DNA from: Candidatus Roizmanbacteria bacterium RIFCSPLOWO2_01_FULL_37_12
Lineage (GTDB): Bacteria > Patescibacteriota > Microgenomatia > UBA1406 > GWC2-37-13
DNA: 32,901 bases
Assembly: GCA_001789645.1 (NCBI GenBank)
Contig: MGAG01000009.1
Location: 35,512 to 68,412, forward strand
Reading direction: 5' to 3'
The position numbers were made by a program, and so were the translations under genes. This document shows, one piece after another, positions 3,128-11,512 of the stretch. Every line of letters begins with the position of its first letter. Within the stretch, counting starts at the first letter, position 1. A model generated the notes under the pieces. That model ran no database searches. It was not told the origin of the DNA and saw only the letters and a program-made list of their open reading frames with translations.

Positions 3128-4333
3128 ATGGGAATTCCTCTAGCAGAACAGCTTCGTCCTGAAACCCTTGAGGGATTTGTTGGTCAGGAACACCTTGTTG
3201 GAAAAAACGGGCCGGTCAGGAAAATGCTCGAGAATAAAAAAGTCACCTCGATGATTTTGTGGGGCCCTCCGGGCTGCGGAAAAACTACACTTGCAAAACT
3301 GATTGCCTATTATGTCAATGCAGATTACATAGCCTTTTCTGCCGTAACCAGTGGAGTGAAAGAAGTAAGAGATATTATTCATAAGGCCAAAGACAGGAAA
3401 AAGATGTTTAAGCAAGATACGGTTCTTTTTGTCGACGAAATCCACCGATTTAATAAAGCTCAGCAAGATGCTTTTCTCCCTCATGTCGAGGACGGAACAA
3501 TAGTTTTGATCGGAGCAACTACTGAAAATCCCGGATTTGAGGTTAATGCTCCGCTTATTTCAAGAAGTCAGGTCTATGTTTTATATTCTTTGAGCAATGT
3601 GGAAATAGAACAAATTATCAAAAAAGCTATCAAACTGTATCCAAAACATAAGTGGGAAAAAGATGCAATTAAACACTTTATTAAATATTCAAATGGTGAC
3701 GCAAGAACCGCTATAAACGCGATAGAATTGGCTGTCTCGATGAGTAAAAAAATTACCCTTAGAGTCGCTGAAGAAGCTATCCAAAGAAAAGCAATATTTT
3801 ATGACAAAAAAGGCGATTGGCACTACGATACTATTTCAGCCTTTATTAAAAGTATGCGTGGCAACGATCCTGATGCGACTCTTCACTATTTGGCAAGAAT
3901 GATCAAGGCCGGCGAAGATCCTGTGTTTATTGCACGTAGAATGTTAATATTTGCATCTGAAGATATTGGCAATGCTCAACCAACTGCACTGGTCCTGGCA
4001 ACTTCCTGCATGCAAGCGGTTCACATGATCGGCATGCCTGAAGCTTCTTTAATTCTTGCCCAAACGGCAACTTATCTGGCAAGCGCAAAAAAATCAATCG
4101 CTTCAACAAATGGCATTACGCAAGCTATGTCAGATATTGACGAGGAAAATCTGGATCCCATACCCCTTCATTTAAGAAATCCATCCAACAAAATTATGAA
4201 GTCTTTTGGATACGGCAAGGGACATACGAGATATCCCTGGCTTGTGGAAAAACAAACTGGAGAAAAAATTAAACAAGAATATCTGCCCAAAAATCTAAAA
4301 GGAAAAAAATACTACATTCCCGACTGGAAATAG
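3128..4333 (+). CDS. rarA: RarA/MgsA replication-associated recombination AAA+ ATPase
   Basis: AAA+ ATPase of 401 aa that acts at stalled replication forks together with SSB and the clamp-loader system. Walker A is GPPGCGKTT (46-54), Walker B is LFVDEIHRFNK (Asp103, Glu104), and the sensor-type stretch GATTENPGFEVN follows. The C-terminal half carries the RarA signature around ARRMLIFASEDIGNAQP and the family ending RYPWLVEKQTGEKIKQEYLP. Length is slightly short but complete. It is distinguished from RuvB and DnaX by the C-terminal tetramerisation region. It converges on the TrpR-family gene, with 80 bp of palindromic DNA between the two ends. Confidence 0.95.
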   Translation: MGIPLAEQLRPETLEGFVGQEHLVGKNGPVRKMLENKKVTSMILWGPPGCGKTTLAKLIAYYVNADYIAFSAVTSGVKEVRDIIHKAKDRKKMFKQDTVLFVDEIHRFNKAQQDAFLPHVEDGTIVLIGATTENPGFEVNAPLISRSQVYVLYSLSNVEIEQIIKKAIKLYPKHKWEKDAIKHFIKYSNGDARTAINAIELAVSMSKKITLRVAEEAIQRKAIFYDKKGDWHYDTISAFIKSMRGNDPDATLHYLARMIKAGEDPVFIARRMLIFASEDIGNAQPTALVLATSCMQAVHMIGMPEASLILAQTATYLASAKKSIASTNGITQAMSDIDEENLDPIPLHLRNPSNKIMKSFGYGKGHTRYPWLVEKQTGEKIKQEYLPKNLKGKKYYIPDWK

Positions 4334-4342
4334 TTTCTCTTT

Positions 4343-4401
4343 GTCATCCTGAATTTATTTCAGGAACTTTGACATTTTTACGCGTACGCGTCATTTTGTC
4401 A
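4343..4401. repeat. Half copy of a dispersed hairpin element plus a 12-bp palindrome
   Basis: Positions 4343-4365 are identical over 23 nt to one half of the paired-hairpin element at 30046 (CCTGAA, loop TTTAT, TTCAGG). Next comes ACGCGTACGCGT (4380-4391), a perfect 12-bp palindrome flanked by TGACA (4370-4374) and TGTCA (4397-4401). The stretch separates the convergent ends of rarA and the regulator gene and might serve both as a terminator, although no clear T-run follows. Confidence 0.5.
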
Positions 4402-4413
4402 ATTTCATGGGGT

Positions 4414-4728
4414 TTAGCCCTTTAGTACTTTCTGATATCCACCACAACCTTTATATAACCAGTGTGCAACTCGCGTAACTGTCGTTGTCGAAACTCCTAT
4501 TTTTTTAGCTATTCTTTGATAAGAACCACCCTCAAGCAGTAATATTGCTATTTCCAATCTATTGGCAAACTCCTCAATCTCAGGTAGAGTCATTAAATCC
4601 CTTACAAAATTAGCCACTTCTTTTTCATTTTTTAACTTTAAAAAAGCTCTAACTAGCGCCTTCTCTTTTTCATTTCTTGGTGAAAAGGATTCATTGCTCG
4701 CAAATCTTGTTTTTAGTCGTACACTCAT
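4414..4728 (-). CDS. TrpR/YerC-family transcriptional regulator, 104 aa
   Basis: Small all-helical repressor of the TrpR superfamily (YerC/YecD type). The family core FVRDLMTLPEIEEFANRLEIA is at residues 41-61, followed by the helix-turn-helix GSYQRIAKKIGVSTTTVTRV (68-87) and the typical GCGGYQKVL end. TrpR proteins bind palindromic operators as dimers in response to an amino acid. As I recall, a relative in Firmicutes (YerC, also called HisR) has been linked to histidine genes, which fits its place opposite hutH; that link is inferred here. Its TTGTCA-17-TAAACT promoter ends 6 nt before the ATG and overlaps the hutH -35, so autoregulation is likely. The effector is unknown. Confidence 0.85.
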   Translation of the reverse strand: MSVRLKTRFASNESFSPRNEKEKALVRAFLKLKNEKEVANFVRDLMTLPEIEEFANRLEIAILLLEGGSYQRIAKKIGVSTTTVTRVAHWLYKGCGGYQKVLKG

Positions 4729-4734
4729 GGATTA

Positions 4735-4763
4735 AGTTTATCAATAAAAAAATCGCTTGACAA
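4735..4763 (-). promoter_or_regulatory. Promoter of the TrpR-family gene
   Basis: Read on minus: TTGTCA (complement of 4758-4763), a 17-bp spacer, then TAAACT (complement of 4735-4740). The -10 ends 6 nt before the ATG at 4728, giving a leaderless mRNA. The -35 shares five positions with the plus-strand -35 of hutH. Confidence 0.6.
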
Positions 4764-4784
4764 ACTAAATTAATATGTTATTAT
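4757..4784 (+). promoter_or_regulatory. Promoter of the hutH operon
   Basis: Consensus TTGACA (4757-4762), a 16-bp spacer, then TATTAT (4779-4784). Transcription would start near 4791 and produce a leader of about 165 nt, unlike the leaderless starts elsewhere in the window. Its -35 overlaps the divergent -35 of the regulator gene, and its -10 runs into the palindrome at 4781-4802. Confidence 0.6.
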
Positions 4785-4802
4785 ATTAACACGTTAATAT
4801 AA
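4781..4802. promoter_or_regulatory. 22-bp perfect palindrome, candidate operator
   Basis: The arm TTATATTAAC (4781-4790) and its exact complement GTTAATATAA (4793-4802) flank an AC centre: a perfect 10+2+10 inverted repeat. It covers the expected -10 and start of hutH transcription and lies next to a TrpR-family gene, the classic place for that family's operator. A further partial repeat, TAATAT...ATATTA (4771-4788), overlaps it. Binding is inferred. Confidence 0.6.
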
Positions 4803-4845
4803 ATATACCGTTAGATCTATATAACAATATTTACTTTATAACTTT

Positions 4846-4905
4846 ATGAACTTGATAAACTTTACAAACTTATTTTTCCATCAAACCTCGCGTCCTGCGG
4901 GGTAA
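4846..4905 (+). CDS. Putative leader peptide, 19 aa
   Basis: A short frame, MNLINFTNLFFHQTSRPAG, ends with TAA inside the second strand of a possible attenuator. It holds three Phe codons and one His codon: a Phe-Phe-His run at 4873-4881 lies just before pairing strand 1. No good Shine-Dalgarno precedes the ATG, which is the main weakness. If translated, its role would be to couple ribosome position to folding of the hutH leader, not to make a working protein. It could equally be a chance frame in AT-rich DNA. Confidence 0.35.
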   Translation: MNLINFTNLFFHQTSRPAG

Positions 4906-4957
4906 TATTGTTATAAATTTTAGTTAACTCTACCCCGCCTCAAGCGGGGTTATTTTT
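4885..4957 (+). promoter_or_regulatory. Attenuator-like leader with terminator hairpin before hutH
   Basis: Four segments can pair in two exclusive ways. Strand 1 (4885-4891, ACCTCGC) pairs with strand 2 (4897-4903). Strand 2 (4897-4904, GCGGGGTA) pairs perfectly over 8 bp with strand 3 (4931-4938, TACCCCGC). Strand 3 (4932-4938) pairs over 7 bp with strand 4 (4944-4950), followed by the U-rich run TTATTTTT that ends at the hutH ATG. The 3:4 hairpin looks like an intrinsic terminator and 2:3 like its antiterminator. The GC hairpin could instead be a dispersed palindrome that landed here. Confidence 0.55.
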
Positions 4958-6520
4958 ATGAAAAAAATAAATGTGGTAAAACTTACAGGAGATTCATTAA
5001 CAATTAAGCAAATTAAAGCTGTAGCCAGAGATTATGCAAAAGTAGAGATTGATAAAAAAGCTTTTTCGAAAAGTAAACTGGGATATAATATTCTCAAGGA
5101 TAAAATAAATCAAAAGGAAAAAATTTACGGAGTAACAACAGGATTTGGTGAGTTTTCTCAAGTCTTTATCGATCCTGATAAAGCCGCTCAACTTCAGCTC
5201 AATCTTATTCGCAGTCACAGTGCAGGTGTGGGAGATCCAGCAAAAGAAGATGTAGTTCGCGCAACTATGCTTTGCCGAGCTAACTATTTGGCTTCTGGTA
5301 TGTCTGGAGGAAGGCCAATACTACTTCAAACTTTGGTTGAAATGTTAAATAAAAAAGTCACTCCACTGATTTTAGAGCAAGGCTCGGTTGGATCAAGCGG
5401 TGATTTAGCTCCTTTGGCAATGATGACTCTACCAATGATTGGTGAAGGTGAAGCTTTTTACGAGGGTAAAAGAATGCCTGGAAAAATTGCTATGAAAAAA
5501 GCCGGTATTCCTTTGATAAAGCTTCAAGCCAAAGAAGGTCTCGCTCTAATAAATGGAGATACATTTATGGCTGGATTGGGATCCCTTGAACTATACGACG
5601 CACTTCAAATTGCCAAATTATCTGAAATAGCTTGTGCAATGACTATGGAGTCGATTGAAGTAGTTCTCCAAGCCATGGATGAAAAAATAGCCAGAGCCAG
5701 AAAATTCGAAGGACAAATAGTAACTGCATCTAATCTTCGAAAGTTGATGAATAAAAGCGAAATTTTATCCGGCCCTCCAACACGAGTACAAGACTGCTAT
5801 TCAATTCGCTGCGCACCTGTAATCTTAGGTGCTAGTCGCGAATCTCTTCTCTGGGTTAAACGACAATTTGAAACTGAAATAAACGCTGCTCAGGATAATC
5901 CATTAGTTTTCTTGGAAACCGGAGAAGTATTGTCAGGTGGAAACTTTCACGGTCAACCAATCTGTATGCCATTAGAAACAATGGCGCAAGCAATCCAAGA
6001 ATATGCAAACGCTTCAGAGATTCGTCAAGAGAGGATGAATAACCCTTATTACAGCAAAATCTTGCCGGCTTTTTTGATCGAATCAGGAGGATTGAACTCT
6101 GGCTTCATGATGCCGCAATATGCTTCAGCCGCACTTGTTAATGAAAATAAAATTTTATGTTATCCGGGAATAGTTGATTCAATTCCTGTTTCTGCCGGAC
6201 AGGAAGATGATTGTTCTATGGGGACAAATGCGGCTCTAAAAATCCAGAGAATTATCAGGAATACCAGATATGTTCTTGCGATCGAACTAATGCTTGGTTG
6301 TCAAGCTTTAGATTTTAAAAAAGGTAAAAAGCCTGGAAAAGGAATTAAAGCCGCATATGATCTCATTAGAAATTATGTTCCTTATATTAAGGTAGATACG
6401 ATTTTATACAAATACGTTGAAAATATATTCAATCTTATTAAAAGTGAAAAATTAGTTGAAACAGTCGAAAAATCAATGGGACCACTTAAAGAACCGGAAG
6501 ATTTACCAAAACCACTATGA
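4958..6520 (+). CDS. hutH: Histidine ammonia-lyase (MIO-dependent)
   Basis: Removes ammonia from L-histidine to give urocanate, the first step of histidine breakdown (520 aa, normal length). The catalytic Tyr is in YGVTTGFG (Tyr57). The substrate His is in RSHSAGVG (His87), which argues against phenylalanine specificity. The MIO-forming triad is SSG (146-148) instead of ASG. Asn199 (ALING), RVQDCYSIRC (276-285), AAQDNPL (310-316) and Glu416 in GQEDDCSMG match histidine lyases. Two usual His residues are replaced: APLAH becomes APLAM, and the residue after QED is Asp418. A urocanase gene in the same run supports histidine as substrate, though tyrosine is not excluded. The gene overlaps the next by 4 nt (ATGA). 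Confidence 0.88.
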   Translation: MKKINVVKLTGDSLTIKQIKAVARDYAKVEIDKKAFSKSKLGYNILKDKINQKEKIYGVTTGFGEFSQVFIDPDKAAQLQLNLIRSHSAGVGDPAKEDVVRATMLCRANYLASGMSGGRPILLQTLVEMLNKKVTPLILEQGSVGSSGDLAPLAMMTLPMIGEGEAFYEGKRMPGKIAMKKAGIPLIKLQAKEGLALINGDTFMAGLGSLELYDALQIAKLSEIACAMTMESIEVVLQAMDEKIARARKFEGQIVTASNLRKLMNKSEILSGPPTRVQDCYSIRCAPVILGASRESLLWVKRQFETEINAAQDNPLVFLETGEVLSGGNFHGQPICMPLETMAQAIQEYANASEIRQERMNNPYYSKILPAFLIESGGLNSGFMMPQYASAALVNENKILCYPGIVDSIPVSAGQEDDCSMGTNAALKIQRIIRNTRYVLAIELMLGCQALDFKKGKKPGKGIKAAYDLIRNYVPYIKVDTILYKYVENIFNLIKSEKLVETVEKSMGPLKEPEDLPKPL

Positions 6521-7431
6521 AAAATTTAAAATCAATAACCCTCGGAGAAGGCAATACTCCACTCATTCGCCTTTTTAATATAGAGAAATTATTAAATTGG
6601 CAAGGAGAAATCTGGGCTAAGGCAGAATGTCAGAATCCCACAGGTTCTTTCAAGGACCGAGGTAGCGTTTCAGAAGTTAAAGAAGCCTTAAAACAAAAAA
6701 AGATGGGTGTAATCTGTGCTTCAACCGGAAATATGGCGGCTAGTTTAGCAGCTTATACGGCTAAGGCAAATTTAAAATGTTTGGTTGTTGTTCCGAAAAA
6801 TACACCCTCGGGAAAACTTAAACAAGCGTCTGTTTGCGGTGCAGAATTAATAGAGGCTGACGGAAATTATGACTTCTGCGTAACAAGAGCAAAAGAAATT
6901 GCAGAAAAAGAGAATTTACTTCTTTGCGGTGATTATGAATTAAGAAGAACAAGTCAACGATCATTGGGAAACGAACTGGCTGAGGCAAAAATAAAATTCG
7001 ATGCTTTTATCACCCCTGTGGGCAATGGTACTTTAGGATGCGCAATTATTGAAGGATTTGTTGGAAAAGGAAAATCGCCAAAGTTTATAGGCGTACAGGG
7101 ACAGGGTTCTGATCCGATCTATCAAGCCTGGAAACATAAATCAGAAATAACTCAAATAAATAATCCTGTGACTATTGCTTCTGCCATGAAAGTTGGTGAT
7201 CCACTCGATGGGAAATTAACCCTCGATTGGATTAAAAAAACGAATGGTCAAATGATTTCAGTTTCAGACAAAGAAATTATCGACGCCCAGGGACTACTTG
7301 CAATACTAGAGGGAACTTATGTCGAAACATCAGCCGCTTCGACTCTAGCCGCTTTAACGGTAAACAATATTAACACTAAATTAAATGTTGTCCTTATCCT
7401 AACAGGATCTGGATTAAAGGAAAATAATTAA
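6517..7431 (+). CDS. Threonine-synthase/threonine-dehydratase-like PLP enzyme, 304 aa
   Basis: Fold-type II PLP enzyme. PLP Lys46 lies in NPTGSFKDRG, the substrate loop is ASTGNMAASLAAY (68-80), and the phosphate-binding glycine loop is PVGNGTLG (167-174). It begins directly with GEGNTPLIRL, so it lacks the N-terminal region of long threonine synthases, and it has no regulatory ACT domain. Threonine synthase makes threonine from phosphohomoserine; relatives deaminate Thr or Ser to enamines. A RidA-family gene 2 nt downstream favours a deaminase or enamine-releasing role, since RidA clears such intermediates. Overlap with hutH by 4 nt implies translational coupling. The exact reaction is unresolved. 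Confidence 0.75.
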   Translation: MKNLKSITLGEGNTPLIRLFNIEKLLNWQGEIWAKAECQNPTGSFKDRGSVSEVKEALKQKKMGVICASTGNMAASLAAYTAKANLKCLVVVPKNTPSGKLKQASVCGAELIEADGNYDFCVTRAKEIAEKENLLLCGDYELRRTSQRSLGNELAEAKIKFDAFITPVGNGTLGCAIIEGFVGKGKSPKFIGVQGQGSDPIYQAWKHKSEITQINNPVTIASAMKVGDPLDGKLTLDWIKKTNGQMISVSDKEIIDAQGLLAILEGTYVETSAASTLAALTVNNINTKLNVVLILTGSGLKENN

Positions 7432-7433
7432 AT

Positions 7434-7832
7434 ATGATAAAAAAAATTAATCCAAAACAATTAACAAAGCCGCTAGGTAGTTATTCACAAGGTACAGCTG
7501 TAGATATTGACCGAATGCGTTTACTCTTTATAACAGGCCAGGTAGCCTTAAATAGCAAAGGAAATATTGTTGGAAAAAACAATATTACTAAACAGTCTGA
7601 CCAGGTATTCAAAAATATAGCGATAATCCTTACAGAAGCAGGCGGAAATTTTTCAAATGTAGTCAAGGTGACAAACTTCATAACCGATATTAAACTTTAT
7701 CCGAAATTTTCTAGAATCAGAAATAAATATTTAAAAAACTCCTTACCTGCGAGTTCACTTTTTGAAGTCCCAAAATTATTTAAAGAAGGACTATTAATTG
7801 AGGTCGAGGCAATCGCAATAATACCTAAATGA
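7434..7832 (+). CDS. RidA/YjgF-family protein lacking the catalytic arginine, 132 aa
   Basis: Small trimeric-fold protein of the RidA (YjgF/UK114) family, which hydrolyses reactive imines and enamines from PLP enzymes. Family landmarks are GSYSQG (15-20), FITGQVALN (32-40), the EAGGNFSNVVKVTNFI region and the closing IEVEAIA (122-128). At the position of E. coli RidA Arg105 (PARSCVEV) this protein has Ser107 (PASSLFEV). Members without that Arg generally lack classic imine deaminase activity, so this one may bind or process something else. It sits 2 nt after the PLP enzyme and 1 nt before the next gene; AAAGGA about 11 nt upstream can act as ribosome binding site. Confidence 0.88.
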   Translation: MIKKINPKQLTKPLGSYSQGTAVDIDRMRLLFITGQVALNSKGNIVGKNNITKQSDQVFKNIAIILTEAGGNFSNVVKVTNFITDIKLYPKFSRIRNKYLKNSLPASSLFEVPKLFKEGLLIEVEAIAIIPK

Positions 7833-9071: not shown

Positions 9072-9815
9072 TTGCCAGGGATGAGCGACCAACCTTTTGC
9101 TAATAATGACAATCCACTTCTCCGAGCTTTAGTTGCAAAATCGATTGAAAATAGTCTTTCCGTTGCTGTGGTTGCCTTCCCAGGAACAACCAATAAAGGA
9201 TTTATCGAACAGAGAACTGTTGAAACCATGAAATCTAACGCTATTGACGCTATTAACGAACTAAAGAATATAATTAATAATTTTAAAAACTTGAAAAAAA
9301 TCTTAATCGGCAGAAGTGCGGGTGGAACTTTAGTTGGTGGTTTAGTAAATCTGAATTTTGAAAAATTTATTATCATAGCCGGCCGGTTAAAAACAAAAGA
9401 ACTATATGATCAAATTATCAAAAAACCAGGTTCTTATCCTAAATTAGTTAAAAACAATAAAAATTACTATGCTTTTGGTTTATCAAAACCATATATTAGA
9501 GCCGATAAAACTTTTAAAAATAAAAATTCGCTTTTCTACTGTTTATGTCAAAAATATGTAGATGAATTAATAAATGAAGAGTCGGTTATTCGAAATACTT
9601 TTAAACTATCCAACAAACAAGCCGAATTATTATTCCTGCAGTCGCGCGATGATAAAACTGTTCCATATCAAGTAAATGAGTGGAAAAAATTAGCTGATAT
9701 GAATAATTTAAAAAATGAAATTTATTCAATCAAATTTCCCTGCGGTCATATGTTTAATACAGAACCGGCTGTAAATGAAACTGTCGACAAAATTATAAGT
9801 TTTATTAATTGTTAA
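9072..9815 (+). CDS. Alpha/beta-hydrolase-fold protein with unclear start
   Basis: Serine hydrolase fold with a visible triad: nucleophile Ser82 in IGRSAGG, an acid in QSRDDKTVP (Asp193 or Asp194) and His226 in PCGHMF (numbering from the TTG at 9072). The substrate is unknown. The TTG is the first conventional start, but the open frame runs back to 8943 and encodes an amphipathic helix and the strand RIIVWLPG, which looks like the natural first beta strand. No ATG, GTG or TTG lies in that extension. An AUA at 8949 overlapping the previous stop as ATAA, or AUU codons at 8946 and 8958, are possible starts. The true protein may therefore be about 288 aa. Confidence 0.72.
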
Positions 9816-9823
9816 TAAAAATT

Positions 9824-11512
9824 ATGTCAAGACCAATGTTTTTTAATGAAAAACCAAAAGAACCAATAAAATCTCCTATTGGGTCTAGAATAAGTTGCAA
9901 AACCTGGGATACAGAAGCCGCAATGCGAATGCTGATGAATAACATCACTCCGGGTGTTGCCTTAAAACCAGATGAGCTAATCGTATACGGAGGAACAGGC
10001 CGAGCAGCACGTAACTGGCGGGAATATAACCGTATTATTAAAGCTTTAAAAAATTTAAAAAAAGACGAAACTCTTTGCATTCAATCTGGAAAACCTGTTT
10101 ATATTGCAAAAACTTATGAAGAATCTCCTCGAGTAATTTTAGCGAACTCAAATATAGTTCCAAAATGGTCGACTCAAGAGAATTTTGATAAATATGATCA
10201 GATGGGCTTAACAATGTATGGTCAAATGACAGCTGGTAGTTGGATATATATTGGCACCCAAGGAATTCTTCAGGGAACTTATGAAACATTAGCAGCTATA
10301 GGTAAAAATGATTTTAAAACCGACACTTTAAGAGGCAAGTTTATTTTAACTGCAGGTATGGGTGCAATGAGTGGAGCACAACCAATGGCGGCAACTATGA
10401 ATGAAGCTATAATTTTAGACATCGAGGTCAGAAGAGAAAGAATTCAACAAAAAGTCAATGAAGGTTACTGCAATATAATTACTGACAGTTTGGATGAAGC
10501 TTTAGAGTGGATAAATAAAGCTAAAAAAGATAAAACTCCGTTATCCATTGGTTTAGTTGGTAATGCAGCCGAAATTGAGCCGGAATTAGTAAGGAGAGAT
10601 ATTATTCCTGACATCGTGACTGACCAGACTTCCGCTCATGATCTTTTAAGTTATATTCCGGCAGGAGAAATCGAAAAAATAGATAAACTCAGAGAAGAAA
10701 ATCCTCAAGAATATAGAAAACTATCGCTAAAATCCATTGCCAAACAAGTAGAAGCCATTCTGGAAATGCAAAAAAGGGGGGCAATCGCAGTAGATTACGG
10801 AAATAATATCAGAGGTCAAGCAGAATTAGCCGGTGTAAAAATTAGAAAAAAAGACGGAAGTTTTAAATATCCTGGCTTTGTTCCTGCTTATATAAGGCCC
10901 TTATTTTGTCAGGGTAAAGGACCTTTTCGTTGGGCTGCACTATCTGGAGACAAAGAAGATTTGAGAGTTATTGACAACGCACTTTTCAAAACATTTCCCA
11001 ATGATAAATCATTACGAAGATGGATTACTATGGCTCGAGAAAAAGTTCCTGTGATCGGATTGCCTACTCGAATTTGTTGGTTAGGTTATAGAGATAGGGC
11101 TAAATTTGGATTGGTTATAAATAACTTAGTTAAAAAAGGCAAATTAAAAGCGCCAATTGTCATCGGTCGCGATCATTTGGATTGCGGCAGTGTCGCCTCG
11201 CCAAACCGAGAAACAGAAGGAATGAAGGATGGTAGTGATGCGATTGCCGATTGGCCATTGCTCAATTTTGCCTTAAATACTGCAGCAGGCGCAAGTTGGG
11301 TTAGCTTTCATAATGGAGGAGGCGTAGGTATCGGTAATTCATTACACGCAGGAATGGTTATTGTTGCCGACGGCACAAAAGAACGCGATGTTCGTCTTCA
11401 AAGGGTTTTGACAGTTGACCCTGGGATTGGTATTGCAAGACACGCTGATGCAGGATATAAAAAAGCTACTGAAACAGCAAAAAGAAAAGGTATAAAAATT
11501 CCAGAAAATTAA
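9824..11512 (+). CDS. hutU: Urocanate hydratase
   Basis: NAD+-dependent enzyme converting urocanate to imidazolone propionate, the second step of histidine breakdown. Nearly every family signature is present: [90 protein letters not shown], the active-site Cys418 in [29 protein letters not shown] and [15 protein letters not shown]. The ATG at 9824 gives 562 aa and begins at MSRPMFFN; a TTG five codons earlier is less likely. It lies 8 nt after the hydrolase. No imidazolonepropionase follows, so the product's fate is not explained here. Paralogues acting on methylated or thio-urocanate cannot be excluded. Confidence 0.95.

Follow-up and report, generated by a model that had tools for sequence, protein, structure and literature searches.

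Attenuators in which the position of the ribosome sets the fold of the leader are known from the gammaproteobacterial His operon leader (RF00514) and from the trp, phe and thr leaders. They combine segments 1 to 4 with a U-tract terminator, and the His leader carries tandem His codons. In bacilli, hisS* and hisZ are known to carry histidine leader peptide attenuators (PMC2965389), and the his operons of some Firmicutes have His attenuators as well (PMC9413887); furthermore, histidine is the corepressor of a Firmicutes HisR (PMC9413887). Regarding histidine degradation, hut operons are under HutC or HutP and are induced by histidine or urocanate.

The locus described here lies in a stretch of 32,901 nt (the window) of a Candidatus Roizmanbacteria genome (1.34 Mb, around 91% complete), a member of the Patescibacteria (CPR), and its closest named orthologues are found in Candidatus Roizmanbacteria too. 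Our main reading is that a ribosome-mediated transcription attenuator sensing charged tRNA-His controls its hutH operon, which we consider very likely (probability around 0.85). The locus resembles the leaders mentioned above in its segments, its U-tract terminator and, in relatives, its tandem His codons. However, an Rfam search of the window gave a tRNA as the sole match and no known leader, RF00514 not being matched at the gathering score. There are one to four His codons instead of seven, and the controlled gene encodes a histidine-consuming enzyme, in a genome of the phylum Patescibacteria in which no histidinol dehydrogenase was detected. What it shares with the bacillar and Firmicutes attenuators is that histidyl-tRNA synthetase genes, nine CPR hisS genes in our case, also have a His-codon leader, but a HAL operon is not reported as a target there. 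Moreover, PMC9413887 looked for attenuators in lineages lacking HisR, whereas the attenuated HAL gene described here has a HisR-like gene as its neighbour. With the HutC and HutP operons it shares hutH, plus hutU in the window; in contrast to them, histidine should act as a repressor according to both devices found here, and no hutI turned up in the window's genome at its completeness of about 91%. The attenuator itself is thus of a known kind. We found no report of a His attenuator in the CPR or on hutH in the open-access literature searched, and, as far as that literature shows, the phylum, the HAL operon as target and a merged regulator-leader in one relative (L021) appear to be new.

The regulated genes of the window are:

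4958..6520, + strand: hutH, histidine ammonia-lyase (HAL), the first regulated gene (TIGR01225, 553.9 bits, cut-off 539.15)
6517..7431, + strand: PLP-dependent threonine-synthase-like enzyme (PALP; PF00291, 1.6e-71), overlapping hutH
7434..7832, + strand: RidA-family enamine/imine deaminase (PF01042, 2.7e-27), likely a member of the operon
9809..11512, + strand: urocanate hydratase, hutU (TIGR01228, 837 bits), downstream and possibly in the same operon

The gene order 3' of hutH is PLP enzyme, RidA, a PEP-utiliser-domain protein, another protein and urocanase, and a PALP-type gene adjoins HAL also in L018-L022 and L024. The best PDB matches of the hutH product are HALs. Read by eye from the alignment, its motifs YGVTTGFG, RSH, LING, RVQD, SIRC, GGNFHG and QED correspond to the active-site residues Y52, S81-H82, N194, Q274, R280, F325 and E411 described for HAL (PMC11432326), and its triad is SSG, not ASG. 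Since the catalytic and substrate-dyad residues are present, histidine or urocanate is the likely ligand. Upstream, at 4338-4380, there is a palindromic repeat-like stretch (GTCATCCTGAATTTATTTCAGGAACTTTGAC), 3' of a replication-associated AAA ATPase gene (3128-4333).

The following elements precede hutH:

4846..4905, + strand: leader peptide frame of 19 codons (MNLINFTNLFFHQTSRPAG; ATG 4846, TAA 4905)
4879..4884, + strand: regulatory codons, CAT CAA (His-Gln) in the window, CAT CAT or CAT CAC in aligned relatives
4885..4892, + strand: segment 1, pairing with segment 2
4896..4904, + strand: segment 2, pairing with segment 1 or with segment 3
4931..4938, + strand: segment 3, forming the antiterminator with segment 2 or the terminator with segment 4
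4944..4950, + strand: segment 4, the 3' arm of the terminator
4951..4957, + strand: U-tract TATTTTT, immediately 5' of the hutH ATG (4958)

Stem 1:2 is formed by ACCTCGCG (4885-4892) and TGCGGGGT (4896-4903), with 8 pairs when G-U is allowed. Stem 2:3 is formed by GCGGGGTA (4897-4904) and TACCCCGC (4931-4938), with 8 bp and perfect. Stem 3:4 joins ACCCCGC (4932-4938) and GCGGGGT (4944-4950) by 7 pairs. The three stems are mutually exclusive and 3:4 carries the U-tract. The His codon (4879-4881) lies directly 5' of segment 1, and the stop codon lies at the end of segment 2. These elements and their geometry are plain in the sequence, and here the original prediction held completely: four segments forming 1:2, 2:3 or 3:4, a perfect 2:3 stem, a GC hairpin with its tail directly before the ATG and a 19-codon frame ending in segment 2. 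A clear Shine-Dalgarno site is absent for the leader frame. A perfect 12-bp inverted repeat (4819-4832 / 4905-4918, TATAACAATATT / AATATTGTTATA) flanks the frame and is paired in the minimum-energy fold; it was not noticed in relatives.

The simplest objection is chance: an ordinary terminator, or GC palindromes of a dispersed kind, may have landed here, and indeed other palindromic repeats occur in relatives (e.g. L018, L011). Nevertheless, this explanation is all but excluded. None of 300 dinucleotide shuffles attained the three-stem score obtained for the last 160 nt before hutH, and in eight relatives, too, the score exceeds all 300 shuffles. There are 2 terminator-like sites in 4700-5000 as opposed to 0.1 in shuffles, and the fold of the 176-nt stretch 4800-4975 has z = -4.1. 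The exact CCCCGC-N5-GCGGGG occurs at only two other sites in the whole 1.34 Mb genome, so the dispersed palindrome, which the original prediction had kept as its null, was rejected. Furthermore, the anatomy is conserved at orthologous genes, with co-variation.

HAL genes were located in Roizmanbacteria, Gottesmanbacteria, Paceibacterota and further genomes. In a strict count within 230 nt, a tandem-His frame precedes 14 of 18 HAL genes, 0.83 being expected from shuffles, and none of the 28 other genes of the window used as a control. The four exceptions are the window itself with its one His codon, L106, L013 and L105, and L106 was missed by the strict count as its frame begins further upstream. 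The leader peptides are MKKIKSQVSLHHTLPQAGSPFM (L018), MIQSSDIKFSFSFHHSLPQAGFPKM (L019), MDQFNDKKNYFNEVHHALPLAGLPNM (L022), MNLINLTNLNSHHSLPQAGSAFM (L009), MNFIDFTNFMNLSVHHPSPRAGSPFM (L010), MDFIDFTNFLTTSFHHSPPRAG (L012), MLNICVQNKANHHNLTNLVG (L024), MKQNNCSSEILCTGILPVTSACLHHHHTAG (L020), MSNHTAVRVHHYSHHLS (L101), MFEINPQTSIAHHHPQHKMAGVVFVI (L102) and MSSMTVLQTNAAHHRPQHKVAGVVFAA (L103), and leader peptides occur also in L106, L107 and L108. The leader was not found before the distant aromatic lyases L014-L017 (29-30% identity) nor before the HAL-like L013 and L105. Most relatives have a U-tract, plus a spacer of tens of nucleotides from the terminator to the ATG.

Pairing of the stems is kept despite sequence change, as in L021 (GGGGAG:CTCCCC), L024 (TTTAGTGGGGTG:CATCCCGCTAAA) and the hisS leaders. 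For 19 leaders, the within-genome pairing energies of 1:2, 2:3 and 3:4 beat 5000 of 5000 between-genome permutations. This figure is optimistic, because segment limits were set by hand and the leaders are related and not independent. The cross-genome permutation was used instead of a MAFFT-based covariance model, which was dropped because the 3:4 register varies and L021 misaligns. Conservation and co-variation are shown: a check on orthologous hutH leaders, set beforehand, found the frame and the three stems kept with strong co-variation. The proposal of a trp/his/phe-like attenuator is supported by the relatives' leaders, and that of Phe-Phe-His as the sensed run had to be refined, since the tandem CAT/CAC of the relatives points to histidine.

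Some further observations concern these loci. A second HAL subfamily (L009:1501-3033, L010, L012; 42-44% identity to the window's) has the same His attenuator, and the L009 HAL has Ala-His in place of the Ser-His substrate dyad. On the far side of HAL and its neighbouring PLP enzyme, L018:3260-5595 and L022:7591-9752 encode an M20 peptidase and a HisRS-like protein that has diverged and scores below the Pfam cut-off; L019 has two aminotransferases at their place. A palindromic repeat (CCCGCCGAAGTTT..ACGAAGGCGGG), which could be a dispersed repeat by its resemblance, lies between terminator and gene in L018:735-775 and L011:105-140 and in L034 near a hisS leader.

The same device is present on hisS genes of relatives. 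A tandem-His frame followed by a terminator was found in 9 of 65 hisS upstream regions in the same family, more than for any other amino acid; the runner-up tandem residue was Gly (6), arising from the GGG of segment 2. His is likewise the commonest tandem residue before a terminator in the HAL regions (8 of 10). The genomes of L020, L021 and L024 yielded a single hisS each, and it sits just downstream, in the HAL cluster. Since an attenuator of this kind also precedes nine hisS genes of the same family, we conclude that what it senses is charged tRNA-His.

In the mechanism that we propose, plentiful His-tRNA would let the ribosome pass the His codon(s), reach the stop and cover segment 2; 3:4 would then form and transcription would end before hutH. 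With scarce His-tRNA, the His codon(s) would hold the ribosome up in a position covering segment 1, and 2:3 would form, blocking the terminator, so that hutH would be transcribed. Termination, ribosome stalling and the direction of control are inferred, without expression data. When the part covered by the ribosome was left out of the folding, 2:3 was preferred in the window, L019, L022, L024, L009 and L011; with the one offset that was used, this did not hold for L018, L021, L012 and L010, so that the exact stall position matters. Against the main reading stand the missing Shine-Dalgarno site and single His codon of the window, its hisS without the device, and induction at low histidine, which is odd for a lyase. 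This paradox, already raised in the original prediction for a catabolic gene, is real and common to the relatives.

An alternative that would bring back ordinary catabolic logic is a tnaC-like arrest peptide, on which free histidine or a product would stall the ribosome and induce the gene. No result of the analysis supports it and we consider it very unlikely. The peptide 5' of the His codons varies in sequence and length, and only the His codons and the RNA-constrained residues are kept; since it is not conserved, codon sensing is favoured and an arrest peptide disfavoured. Moreover, hisS bears the same device, and the peptide of L021 coincides with the end of a regulator protein.

A further alternative, which appears unlikely to us, is that the hairpin mainly controls translation of hutH, with 3:4 hiding the GCGGGG upstream of the AUG and 2:3 freeing it. 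In its favour, the 3:4 tail of the window ends at the hutH ATG, and another family (L020, L106, L107, L108) has His leaders before HAL without a U-tract terminator. The latter also counts against our main reading, and the output stage in this family may differ from termination. However, the U-tract and the spacer found in most relatives fit termination. The sequences downstream of the leaders in this family are mutually alike (GCGTGGTTGAGGC-like).

Regarding initiation of transcription, three more features lie upstream of the leader:

4757..4784, + strand: sigma-70-type promoter TTGACA-16-TATTAT (11 of 12 consensus matches)
4781..4802, no strand: operator-like palindrome TTATATTAACACGTTAATATAA of 22 bp (10-bp arms, 2-nt spacer)
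4414..4728, - strand: TrpR-family regulator, YerC/YecD-like and HisR-like (PF01371, 2.5e-18; TIGR02531 above cut-off)

The promoter is kept in six relatives (L009, L010, L012, L018, L019, L022). The transcript start predicted from it lies upstream of the leader, so that a start downstream of 4905, which would have refuted the attenuator, is not what is predicted. The palindrome spans the -10 region and the predicted start, and its core ATATTAACACGTTAATAT is kept in relatives. The regulator gene lies upstream of hutH and is divergent from it, its product has the Trp_repressor domain (PF01371) above cut-off, and a similar gene is near HAL in L009, L010, L012, L018, L019, L021, L022 and L024. As in the HisR regulons (PMC9413887), there is a TrpR-family gene, and L018, L022 and L021 have, close to the promoter, TTTA-N6-TAAA palindromes that agree with the HisR consensus of that work; in contrast, none of these boxes is in the window and the most conserved palindrome here, ATATTAACACGTTAATAT, is of other sequence. 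A HisR-like repressor at the promoter palindrome would be a second layer of control. If histidine were its corepressor, as inferred by analogy with PMC9413887 and without histidine-binding data, it would have the same sign as the attenuator, and both devices would turn the operon on at low histidine.

In L021 the HisR-like gene is on the hutH strand and its C-terminus (...KKAHHTSLT) runs straight into the stems (L021:4563-4923). We infer from this sequence, one example only, that the regulator's own tail would double as leader peptide. In L075 a HisR-like gene is immediately 5' of hisS and is preceded by ACTTT-N6-AAAGT-like boxes; its tail HH was considered as a second case of the L021 type and rejected, because no attenuator stems follow.

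The window copy shares promoter, operator, frame and stems with relatives of 85-87% identity, and differs from them in CAT CAA for CAT CAT/CAC, in the stop inside segment 2 and in lacking a spacer between terminator and ATG. As the more distant HAL genes of L020, L021 and L024 have tandem His, the simplest account of the single His is a secondary loss, and the response may be weaker with one His codon instead of two. A less likely possibility is that the window copy, descended from a true His attenuator, is in decay after losing one His codon and would by now act mostly as a constitutive partial terminator or as a leader under repressor control. The CAT CAA, the absence of such a leader from the same genome's own hisS and the presence of urocanase in this genome alone among the 11 HAL genomes speak for it. 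Nevertheless, the frame and all of the three stems remain intact and strong, and a single regulatory codon could still stall the ribosome where it shields most of segment 1. A single case cannot tell whether the single-His change and urocanase are linked.

Histidinol dehydrogenase was not found in the 11 HAL genomes, several of them incomplete assemblies, and histidine auxotrophy is thus indicated with that reservation. Urocanase was not found in the ten others with the leader, and none of the 11 showed a complete Hut pathway. Given the missing histidinol dehydrogenase and urocanase, HAL is probably outside the normal Hut pathway. We infer that HAL is grouped with histidine supply and charging and not with substrate-induced catabolism, its role there remaining open. 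A bolder reading, which is no more than possible, is that in these reduced, probably histidine-auxotrophic CPR, HAL and hisS form a histidine-starvation regulon serving histidine supply, jointly under a HisR-like repressor and a His attenuator. As examples, HAL might run in reverse, aminating scavenged urocanate, or, together with the neighbouring PLP enzyme, act on a different derivative of histidine, both being open. The reverse HAL reaction is thermodynamically unfavourable, and therefore the amination direction is a question and not a claim.

Thus, there is strong comparative evidence for leader-peptide coupled control of transcription and translation in the candidate phyla radiation, where regulation has been little studied. 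The predicted control, which is inferred, would be the reverse of textbook logic, with a gene that normally destroys histidine being on when histidine is scarce. If histidine shortage turns a lyase on, degrading histidine is unlikely to be its purpose, and what this gene with its catabolic annotation does becomes a direct question.
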